A stretch of DNA of 64,000 bases from Candidatus Altimarinota bacterium. Its GTDB lineage: Bacteria > Patescibacteriota > Gracilibacteria > BD1-5 > UBA6164. Under the pieces are notes generated by a model. The model had not been told where the DNA came from. It was given only the letters and a program-made list of their open reading frames with translations, and did not search any database. Shown piece after piece: positions 43,353 to 48,943 of the stretch. The stretch's first letter is position 1. The number at the start of each line of letters is the position of its first letter. Both the position numbers and the translations under genes were made by a program. The stretch covers positions 1 to 64,000 of the forward strand of contig JAIUMN010000002.1 of NCBI GenBank assembly GCA_022565555.1. The letters are read 5' to 3'.

Positions 43353-43365
43353 GAATCAAGAAAAA

Positions 43366-43778
43366 ATTGCAAGAGTAATAAGCCGGATTCTGTACTTCGA
43401 CATCAATCTATCTAGGACTTATATCACTATAAGTCTCAAGCTGGGTATTTGTTTTTGAGGCAATAGAGAACAATGAACCTCATAGCAAACCATTCCCATT
43501 GCATCCTCAGGGGTTTACCAAGTTCAGGACAAGTCCTGCTTCATCTGTAGCATATAATCCTTACACGAAAACGAGTTTCGCAATCAAGAGTAAACACACC
43601 AAATGACTTTTCACCTTTCTCTCGCTTACACGAAATAGTATAGTCTCTGTGGCACTTTCCGTATCCCGCACTTATGTATTATTTGCGGAACCAAAGCCGT
43701 TAGCTTTCTGAGCGTTCTCGTGATGTCCGGACTTTCCTCATCCAGCTTTAGCTGAACGTAGATGTCTGCTCTTGCAGG
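43366..43778 (-). ncRNA. rnpB: RNase P RNA, bacterial type A
   Basis: Catalytic RNA that removes tRNA 5' leaders. The minus strand has the universal P4 5' block GAGGAAAGTCCGGAC (at 43718-43740) and the 3' block ACAGAATCCGGCTTAT (near 43378-43393). P1 is closed by TGCAAGAG (43769-43776) and its complement (43368-43375), which sets the ends. An internal GGTGAAAAG and a GGTAAACCCC P-loop region match bacterial type A RNase P. About 410 nt, a normal length. Followed by a terminator. Encoded alone, upstream of adk. Confidence 0.95.
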
Positions 43779-43888: not shown

Positions 43889-44866
43889 ATGTCTTCAATA
43901 AATTTTTTGTCAACATCATCTAAACTTCTTATATCAGAAGCAAAAGATTTATGACTCAGTGTTGAAATAATAGACGCAGATAATAATGTATTTTTTATCT
44001 GAAATTCAGAAAAAAAGATCCTCTTTAAAAATACAGATTTTTGAGTAAATAGCGCTCTATGATTTAAGCTTGTAAATGATAAATCCCTCTGTTACACCTT
44101 ACTAGAAAGAAATTGATTTCCTATAGCTAAGAGCCTCTATCTTAAAAAAGAAAATTTTAATAATTTCAAAGAATCTGATATTTCCTGATTTCTCTTCCCG
44201 CTTGTTATAAAACCTCTTTCAGAAGCTCATTGAAATGGAGTCCGAATGAATATAAGAGATTATTGAGAACTGCAAATAAAACTTGAAACATCATTTTTAG
44301 ATTACGATACCATGATTATTCAAGAACAAATCAAATGAGATGAGATACGTATGCTTGTCTTTGATAATGAAATTATTGCTGCTTACATAAGAAAACCTCC
44401 AGTTGTTACAGGAGATGGAAAACGAACTATACAAGAATTAGTAGAATATGAAAATACAACAAACCCTTTAAGATGAGAGCAATATGAAAATGTCTTAACT
44501 AGTATAGAGATAGATGATGAGGTGTTAGATACTTTAAAAAAGCAATCTCTAAATATTCTCTCAATACCGCGAGAATGACAGAATATTATTTTAAGGCGTA
44601 ATTCCAATGTTGGGACATGAGGAACATTGGTTAATGTATCAAGTATACTTCATCCGCAAGTAAAGCAATGAGTTATCGAGTCTCTTGCAGTTTTTTGATT
44701 ACATTTTGCGTGAGTTGATATCATACTTCAAGATCCTAGGAGTCCTCTTTTAAAGGAAAATTGAGTAATTTTAGAGATAAATGCAACTCCATGATTATGA
44801 GGTCATAAAGAAATGCTTTGAGTTAATTCCTGAAATCTTGTTTTAAGAAAACTATTTGGCATCTAA
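43889..44866 (+). CDS. ATP-grasp ligase-like protein
   Basis: A 325-aa protein of the ATP-grasp fold (RimK / cyanophycin-synthetase-like). It shows the substrate-side KPLSEAHGNGVRMNIRDYGEL glycine loop, IIQEQIKGDEIRMLVF, the VVTGDGKRTIQELVEY block and the metal-binding C-terminal VILEINATPGLGGHKEM. It probably forms an amide or peptide bond using ATP; the acceptor is unknown. It is convergent with a DUF1704 peptidase, overlapping it by 15 bases. ATP-grasp and DUF1704 proteins are known to be paired in many bacteria. Confidence 0.85.
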
Positions 44867-46417
44867 TCTTCTTTCTATAAACCTCAAAAGACTAAGTATG
44901 CTTTTCTCTTTACGTTCTATCCGTTTAATAATCTTAAATCTCTCTATATCTAAAAACCAATACTTCTTTTTTAAGTAGAGATAGAATACCTTTGTATCAA
45001 AGATAAAGCTATCATCCTGCTTTTTTTGTTCTAGATAATAAAAAACGATATCAGAGAAAAAAAGTGGAAAAATTATATCATTTTTTTGTCTCGATCAGGA
45101 GTATATGAGATGAATATGATCAATATCATGAAATCAAACTTTTCATAAAAATAACTTATAAAACTCTCATCAATCTTTAAGATATCTCAGTACCTCCTCA
45201 AGTCATCGAGAGTATGCGAGATCTTTATGTTGAACTCAAGGATAATCTAAACTATAATTTCTCTTTGCTCTCAGTATACTAGATTCATAATCACGTCTCT
45301 GCTTACACTCTTTTCATAATATCCTCATATATGTTATAAAATCATTTCAATTCAAACACTCTCCTCAGAGTATAGGAAAGAATATATGTATAATACTTTC
45401 TATATTATCAAGATTATATCACTCAAAAATCCTTTCCATAAACATCGCTATTCATTCTTCTTTTGGGAGATTATTTGCTCATCGAAATTTTCATAATAGT
45501 GTATTATTATTATATATATTGATATAGTGTGACTCTATTTCATGAGTAATAAGTTTTAATATTCTCTCTAACGGAAGGGTTGAAAATTGTTGACTTCTTG
45601 GTATCTCTAGAAACTTATCCCCATCGTATATTGATCATGCACTCGTTATTTTTGTTCGTTGGGGGAGTCAATATATTTCACATATAGTATCAAAAATTTC
45701 TCTATAATCTTTACGTGATATATTTTTTTGAAGAAATCCTTGGATTACCTGATTCTGCCTTGAGTCTTGCTCTATTCTTATAGGATTTTTTTGAGGGGCA
45801 AAGTTCCTAATCGTCTCAAGATATCACTTAATGAGTTTTTTATCAGTTTGAGATAACTTAATATTTTCTATTGTATCTATATTGGATATAAAATTATAAC
45901 ACCCCCAAAATTCCTCAGAATTACTTATAATTTTATTTCAAAAAATTTTTCTTTCTTTCTTCTCTATCTCATGTATGAGTTGTAAACTCTTCGTCTTACT
46001 AAGATGGGATACTCAAGTTCATTTTTCGATTTCAAAATCAACTCATAAGACAGATATCTCAAGTATTTCTTTTATATATTCAAGTGCTTCTATAAATAAA
46101 GTCTTTCTCAGTGATTGATGTCTTGAAAAAACAAGTGTCTTTTTTGTTTTATTAATAAGTGATTCGAGTTGCAATATCTGTATTCATATCTTGAATCTAT
46201 ACTTTAGTCACAGTTTTTCTATAGTATAGTTAGGATAGTTGAGTCATAAATATTCTTCAAATAATGTTTCATTCACATAGAGTCAATCTTCAATTTCTCT
46301 ATAACTATATGTTACTTCAATTATCTTTTCGAGTTTACCGTGAAAAATATACTTATCAGCGAGATCAATAAGCTTATCTAGATTATGAGCTCGTAGAAGC
46401 TTAAAAGAAAATAGCAT
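44852..46417 (-). CDS. DUF1704/QEGLA-type zinc peptidase-like protein
   Basis: A 521-aa protein with the HEIESH zinc-binding motif (H292, E293, H297) and, about 28 residues later, NLPKEEGIAMFMER, the counterpart of the QEGLA motif that names this family. Human relatives (MATCAP/KIAA0895) are tyrosine carboxypeptidases. The N-terminal half is helical and Lys-rich. In bacteria the family is often beside RimK-like ATP-grasp enzymes, as here (convergent, 15-base overlap). It follows the lytic transglycosylase by three bases and is probably cotranscribed. Confidence 0.85.
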
Positions 46418-47518: not shown

Positions 47519-48943
47519 ATGGAAAATCACTACAGAGTTAAAAACATCCTTACAGAGATTATTGAAAATGTCAAAAAACAAGATTATCTGGTATATTTCC
47601 GAAAGATTACGATTTGTAAAATAGAGTCGGGATTAATCACATTTTGAACTGTATCAAGCTTTATGCGAGATAACCTGCAAGCAAAATTTTATTCTCTCGT
47701 ATTAGAGGCTACAAAAAAAGAGTTTTGAGATTCTATTACAAGTATTGATTTTATTGTTGATAATAACATTGATAACCCCTCTAATATTGATGCTGTTGAT
47801 TGCCAAAAGTTCTACAAAGAGTACTCGCGTCAACAAAAAACACCAAGTAAAAAAACTTCTCACTCACAAGTTGAAATTAAAGCTCAGTCTGCAAAAAGAT
47901 ATCTCCTTTCTAACTTTATCGTTTGAGCAGATAATCAGCTTGCATACTCAGCATGTGAAGCAGTATCGAAAAACCCTTGAAAATCATATAACCCTCTTTA
48001 CATTTATGGTGACGTATGACTTTGAAAAACTCATCTTTTACAAGCAACATGAAACGAGATACTTAAGAGGTTTAAAGATAAGAAAGTTACATATACTACA
48101 GCTGATAAATTTATTACGGAATACGTTACCGCAGTAAAAAAGAGAAATGTTGAACGTATGCGAGAAAAATTTCGTGATGCTGATGTACTCGTTGTAGATG
48201 ATGTTCAATTTCTCTCAAAGAAAGAACAAACTCAAAATGAGCTTTATAATATATTTAATATTCTCTATGATGGGAATAAGCAGATAATTATTTCCGGTGA
48301 TAGAGCTCCTAAAGAACTTACTGAGCTAGAGCCACGTCTTAGAAGTCGTTTTGAATGGGGGATAACAGTCGATATAGGAAAGCCTGATTATGAAACACGC
48401 CTTGCTATCATACAAGAAAAGGCTCGTGAAAAAGAGTTTATGATCCCACAAGATGTTGCTGAATTTATAGCGGCAAATGTAACTGAGAACGTACGTGAAC
48501 TTGAATGAGTTCTCAATCAAATGATAGCTGAATATGAGCTTACCGGAAGTACGCCAAATCTTTCAAAAATTGCTCAAAAACTTCAAAAACTCAGCTTTAC
48601 GAATGATTTACTTGGTGAATCACGTTACCTCCAGAAAAATAAAACCCTCAAAACTATACGAAGTTATGAGGATATCATAGAGGCTGTAAGTCAACATTTT
48701 GGTATAGAAAGAGAGGGGATACTCTGAGAAAATAGAAAAAAAGAGTTTATGATACCTCGTCAAGTAAGTATGTTTCTTCTTAAAACTAAGATGAGTTACA
48801 CCTATGAACGTATAGGAAATATTTTTTCTGGAAGAAATCATGCCTCAGTTCTCTATAGCTGCAACAAGCTCGAGAAACTGATGAAAAAAGATAAAAAACT
48901 TCTCTATGAAGTAAATGCTATTAAAGAAAGTATAGGAATATAA
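47519..48943 (+). CDS. dnaA: Chromosomal replication initiator protein DnaA
   Basis: Binds origin DnaA boxes and opens the duplex. 474 aa, normal. Domain III starts AKRYLLSNFIVGADNQLAYSA and has Walker A GDVGLGKT (164-171; G167 and G169 are both TGA), Walker B VLVVDDVQFL, and EPRLRSRFEWG with the arginine finger. Domain IV carries RQVSMFLLKTKMSYTYERIG and the DNA-binding signature GRNHASVLYSCNK. A terminator begins on its stop codon. Confidence 0.97.

Follow-up and report, generated by a model that had tools for sequence, protein, structure and literature searches.

A convergent ATP-grasp ligase and MATCAP-family peptidase gene pair in Candidatus Altimarinota and its possible link to Rlo-like reversible polyglutamate tagging

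What do an amino-acid ligase and a peptidase do together when their genes end inside each other in a candidate-phylum bacterium? To our knowledge, very few protein modifications are known from candidate-phyla bacteria. In eukaryotes, MATCAP-family zinc carboxypeptidases carry out tubulin detyrosination and deglutamylation. The initial annotation of the window, by which we mean the whole stretch of 64,000 nucleotides that was analysed, had read the two genes as a maker and breaker that might add and remove an amino acid on a cellular target, after the model of the tyrosine on tubulin tails. As outlined below, the maker/breaker pairing, the intact motifs and the conserved association of the two families stood, while the tyrosine cycle, a strict unit of two orthologues and a conserved overlap did not.

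The overlapping genes and their products

With TGA read as glycine (code 25) the convergent pair was found again: an ATP-grasp gene, P0001 (43,889 to 44,866, plus strand), encoding a stand-alone ATP-grasp amino-acid ligase of 325 amino acids with 20 TGA-encoded glycines, and P0002 (44,852 to 46,417, minus strand), encoding a DUF1704/MATCAP-family gluzincin metallopeptidase of 521 amino acids with 25 TGA-encoded glycines. The convergent 3′ ends overlap by 15 bases (44,852 to 44,866), the stop codon of P0001 being TAA at 44,864 to 44,866 (plus) and that of P0002 TAG at 44,854 to 44,852 (minus); coordinates and stop codons thus agree with the overlap claimed earlier, and the catalytic motifs are present despite the many TGA codons, as had also been proposed. 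Since catalytic residues are kept in orthologues of ~27–54% identity, both are genuine genes and not chance open reading frames. Between an adenylate kinase gene and P0001 lies a bacterial RNase P class A RNA (RF00010, 170 bits, 43,363 to 43,777, minus strand).

The 15-base overlap was considered as a conserved regulatory feature and rejected, as the congeners lack it: a short MATCAP-family gene of ~375 amino acids stands between the P0001- and P0002-type genes of G041 and G045, and a RimK-like gene separates them in G043. The overlapping layout of the window therefore looks derived, given the intervening short gene in G041 and G045. Tail-to-tail overlaps were also found in G003, between a fusion gene (see below) and the P0001 orthologue (15 bases), and in G177 (4 bases).

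The best profile match of P0001 was cyanophycin synthetase (TIGR02068, 4e-64), restricted to positions 158–452 of 862, the ATP-grasp region, and the protein was further matched to the solved cyanophycin synthetase (CphA) 7wac (5e-39), to GshAB and to N-acetylglutaminylglutamine (NAGGN) synthetase. Its score against RimK PF08443 (2e-13, 50.9 bits, cut-off 21) places it in the ATP-grasp superfamily. The cut-offs of the full families were not reached, neither for TIGR02068 (217 bits vs 850, the Mur-ligase module being absent) nor for the RimK subfamily TIGR00768 (69 bits vs 143), and consequently P0001 is a relative of cyanophycin synthetase and not this enzyme itself. The TTL profile gave no match in P0001. 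Among the orthologues K108, R154, R168, D277 and E296 are invariant and N298 is nearly so; Glu296 and Asn298 belong to the Mg/ATP-binding motif EINATPGLGGH (residues 296–306; 44,774 to 44,806, plus strand). The sequence thus places P0001 among the amino-acid ligases of the CphA/RimK superfamily of ATP-grasp enzymes, its core residues being conserved. An AlphaFold model built from two sequences reached a pLDDT of 52 and was left out of the analysis.

P0002 scored 29.5 bits against PF08014 (MATCAP/DUF1704, cut-off 27), which makes it a divergent member of this family, and 31.5 bits against the QEGLA equivalog TIGR02421, under the cut-off of 338.65. The zinc site comprises the HExxxH motif HEIESH (residues 292–297; 45,527 to 45,544, minus strand) and the third zinc ligand region EEGIA (residues 320–324; 45,446 to 45,460, minus strand), in which G322 is invariant. 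H292, E293, H297 and E321 are invariant across 14 orthologues and were aligned to 7z5g, the profile alignment pairing HEIesH with HEIgtH, eEGlA with EEGLA, and aKRNy...KDvsY with AKRGq...KDqvY. The predicted structure (pLDDT 80.8, pTM 0.83) retrieved human MATCAP chains as its top three Foldseek hits (probability 1.00, E 1.4e-3 to 2.1e-3), with a loose global superposition (TM 0.33–0.53, rmsd 7–9.5, ~16% identity). Profile and model together identify P0002 as a MATCAP-family zinc peptidase with predicted carboxypeptidase activity. In a small tree of MATCAP proteins the P0002-type proteins, which are monophyletic, and the fused MATCAP domains formed separate supported clades, and the short forms split into two groups. 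Inspection by eye revealed no signal peptide in P0002 or in the fusion. A phage or defence origin of P0002 was also considered and discarded: no relative occurred among phage records or viral contigs; a scan of genome contigs for relatives found only four.

Conservation of the pairing and the Rlo-like components around it

The initial annotation had called for a survey of DUF1704 neighbourhoods in relatives, and this survey revealed a conserved pairing. Within the order, a MATCAP-family gene adjoins the P0001-type gene at 18 of the 22 fetched loci, and three of the four remaining loci are cut by a contig end. Three kinds of partner were observed: a facing P0002-type gene (the window, G041, G043, G045, G047 and G065), a short MATCAP gene of ~375 amino acids in the operon of P0001 (G007, G033, G039, G071 and G076, plus G041 and G045), and a fusion of an RloC-like ligase with a MATCAP domain (G003, G004, G019, G020, G023, G024 and G032). 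For the phylum, a draw of 380 genomes was surveyed, 35 of which contain both families; the ATP-grasp and MATCAP genes lie at most 8 kb apart in 24 of these 35, 16 of them convergent, against a chance rate of ~4% per genome for this distance, although the nominal significance of 24/35 is overstated because family f31 contributes ~13 cases and members of the same family do not count as independent. Orthologues of P0001 and P0002 as such do not co-occur across genomes of the order beyond chance (P = 0.48), so that the partner of P0001 is the MATCAP family and not one particular orthologue: P0001 teams with whichever MATCAP-family gene the genome has. The idea of the two genes as a unit therefore survives in part. 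The pairing of maker and breaker stands and the exact orthologue pair does not, and the pairing is set in a larger Rlo-like system that also comprises RloB and a fusion of RloC with MATCAP.

The fusion of the window genome, P0004 (793 amino acids, on another contig), combines an RloC-like ATP-grasp part (PF14397, 180 bits vs 31; RloC equivalog TIGR02291, 226 bits vs a cut-off of 314) with a MATCAP domain (PF08014, 109 bits), and an RloB-like 7TM protein (PF14402, 66 bits vs 25) is encoded on a third contig. Pair, fusion and RloB are thereby spread over three contigs in the window genome, whereas other genomes of the order hold them in one operon. As a Rosetta stone, the natural fusion of ligase and peptidase supports their association. 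Matches to P0004 (E up to 1e-40) were found in 45 of the 77 genomes of the order, including G035 with the ATP-grasp half only, and the 7TM protein in 44; the two occur together in 43 (P = 5e-18, uncorrected for kinship).

The retropepsin RloA (PF05618) is absent from the window genome and from 76 of the 77 genomes of the order. The sole exception is G035, whose operon RloB-RloC-RloA carries an unfused RloC and shows the canonical proteobacterial layout; the RloB of this code-25 genome has PKD domains (L132, 2,872 to 6,486). The other RloC genomes of the order carry the MATCAP domain wherever this could be checked, assembly breaks blocking the rest. We infer, from the contrast with one genome, G035, that the MATCAP peptidase may have taken the place of the RloA retropepsin beside RloC. 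Such a replacement is not universal, since in family f22 both peptidase types share one cluster.

Across the phylum the same components recur in several arrangements. The orders fusion-7TM-RimK-P0001 (L069, L070), RloB-RloC-MATCAP-P0001 (L135) and RloB-RloC-P0001 convergent with MATCAP and overlapping it by 4 bases (L133) were observed, as were RloB-RloC-P0001-P0001-RimK facing MATCAP-MreB (L136 and L137, in part L128) and RimK-PF05618-P0001-MATCAP (L134, more loosely L140 and L141), the RimK and PF05618 genes being grouped in family f22 with those for P0001 and MATCAP. The 7TM gene, a P0002-type gene, RimK and the fusion stand together on a named SR1 contig (L094). In family f31 the MreB gene lies directly upstream of the MATCAP gene (L128, L136, L137). 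Directly upstream of the RloC-MATCAP fusion an FtsX-like permease gene was found in L088–L091, and close downstream an OMP-decarboxylase/phosphoribosyltransferase fusion, which follows immediately in L088–L090. Beside the P0001/MATCAP cluster of G047 stands a GNAT-like gene (L055, 9,306 to 10,067; PF13480, weak and below cut-off), which recalls the GNAT-ATP-grasp NAGGN synthetase.

Outside the phylum, the suggestion that the two families lie side by side in other bacteria was confirmed on a Shinella plasmid, where genes for N-formylglutamate amidohydrolase, QEGLA and 'glutathione synthetase' follow in this order. The rhizobial QEGLA genes of L096 and L097 both come after N-formylglutamate amidohydrolase, the 'glutathione synthetase' gene then following in Shinella.

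What the pair may make and remove

In Pseudomonas the RloA retropepsin cleaves polyglutamate, namely chains of 8 or more glutamates; loss of rloA is rescued by loss of rloB or rloC, and rlo mutants display altered shape and antibiotic sensitivity or resistance (PMC12239564). Human MATCAP/TMCP enzymes likewise shorten polyglutamate chains (PMC10499314). What speaks most strongly for a polyglutamate-like substrate is accordingly that two unrelated polyglutamate-cutting peptidases appear to share one slot beside one ligase; against it, the nearest characterised relatives of P0001 use Asp, Gly or Gln besides Glu. An envelope-linked acceptor is likely in view of the MltD-like lytic transglycosylase gene P0003 (SLT, PF01464; 46,421 to 47,311, minus strand), which shares the strand of P0002 and precedes it by 3 bases, the MreB gene before MATCAP in f31, the membrane location of RloB and the rlo mutant phenotypes. 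The SLT-P0002 adjacency recurs in six relatives (G037, G041, G042, G043, G045 and G056). Next to P0003, and divergent from it, is a dnaA-like gene (47,519 to 48,943).

With these observations in mind, we hold it somewhat probable that the pair belongs to a dispersed Rlo/RimK-like system for reversible amino-acid chains, most likely of polyglutamate, with MATCAP as the eraser and a substrate that is probably linked to the envelope. The ATP-grasp enzymes would add acidic amino acids singly to the C-terminus or to a side-chain branch of an acceptor, which may be cytoplasmic or membrane-linked and probably has a connection with the envelope or the machinery of the wall. The MATCAP peptidases, acting as carboxypeptidases, would remove the added residues, which is the role of RloA in Pseudomonas, so that the MATCAP zinc carboxypeptidase would replace the retropepsin or act beside it. 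The compartment would differ from that of Rlo, given that RloA is secreted and neither P0002 nor the fusion has a visible signal peptide.

Three other readings were weighed. That the pair builds and degrades a free peptide metabolite or storage polymer (cyanophycin-, glutathione- or NAGGN-like) rather than a protein tag is suggested by the closest models of P0001, namely cyanophycin synthetase, GshAB and N-acetylglutaminylglutamine synthetase, and by the rhizobial QEGLA genes adjoining N-formylglutamate amidohydrolase and 'glutathione synthetase'. Cyanophycin synthesis itself is ruled out by the missing Mur-ligase module (217 bits vs 850), and a storage role leaves the 7TM RloB, RloC and the RimK-RimB coupling unexplained; we consider this explanation rather unlikely. 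Less probable still is peptidoglycan peptide editing, in which an amino acid would be ligated to a muropeptide and taken off again by the peptidase during wall recycling. The SLT gene next to P0002 in the window and in six relatives would fit such a process, as would the changed shape and antibiotic sensitivity of the Pseudomonas rlo mutants (PMC12239564), but Mpl, MurF or amidase neighbours were not found, and the links to RimK-RimB and RloB indicate polyglutamate.

For FtsZ, MreB or another cytoskeletal protein, a tubulin-style cycle of C-terminal tyrosine, the analogy originally drawn, could appeal to the family that P0002 shares with tubulin tyrosine carboxypeptidase and to the MATCAP gene right after MreB in f31. 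The FtsZ of the window genome, however, ends in IPTFLRKKK and its ribosomal protein S6 in MFVNLEA, neither tail being acidic or aromatic, and the same holds for the C-terminal tail of MreB in G147. The tails of FtsZ and S6 were consequently discarded as targets, which speaks against tubulin-like and S6 readings alike. As P0001 moreover resembles CphA and RimK and not TTL, and the neighbours indicate glutamate chains and the cell envelope, the tyrosine cycle is very improbable and this part of the earlier proposal was abandoned.

Building on the polyglutamate-like tagging system, a broader proposal is plausible, if more doubtful than the system itself: MATCAP carboxypeptidases may first have been erasers of bacterial Rlo/RimK-type polyglutamate tags and may, in candidate phyla, have replaced or joined the retropepsin and even become fused to the writer, yielding a single-chain writer-eraser.

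Comparison with known systems

In a literature search over 5.39 million papers DUF1704 and ATP-grasp were never named together, although an earlier ATP-grasp neighbourhood survey may already record the link, and no tested function was found for bacterial DUF1704/QEGLA proteins. If linked to Rlo and RimK, systems that cleave polyglutamate, these proteins would gain a concrete, testable activity; furthermore, the link suggests a bacterial origin for the enzymes by which the tubulin code is edited, and it indicates envelope modification in candidate-phyla bacteria.

Human MATCAP/TMCP1 (KIAA0895L) and TMCP2 share with P0002 the fold and the HExxxH, EEG and KR...KD motifs, whereas the N-terminal half of P0002 differs, tubulin is absent and the gene adjoins ATP-grasp ligases. 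The Rhizobiaceae QEGLA family (TIGR02421) likewise has a MATCAP domain adjoining an ATP-grasp gene ('glutathione synthetase'), but with N-formylglutamate amidohydrolase included and RloB not nearby. P0001 aligns with CphA over the ATP-grasp (G) domain and differs in being a stand-alone protein of 325 amino acids that lacks the Mur-ligase module. The RimK-RimB polyglutamylation of S6 similarly sets an ATP-grasp glutamate ligase against an opposing peptidase; here, however, P0001 is not RimK, S6 has no acidic tail and the window genome lacks PF05618.

In rloABC of Pseudomonas aeruginosa (PMC12239564) the peptidase is RloA, a secreted retropepsin; here a MATCAP zinc gluzincin, either free-standing or joined to RloC, is found in its stead, a further ATP-grasp enzyme of the CphA type, P0001, is added, and the window genome has its genes scattered. 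Both systems nevertheless possess an RloC-like ATP-grasp protein (PF14397/TIGR02291, in the window genome below the TIGR02291 cut-off), a 7TM inactive-transglutaminase RloB (PF14402) and a peptidase partner that opposes the ligase.
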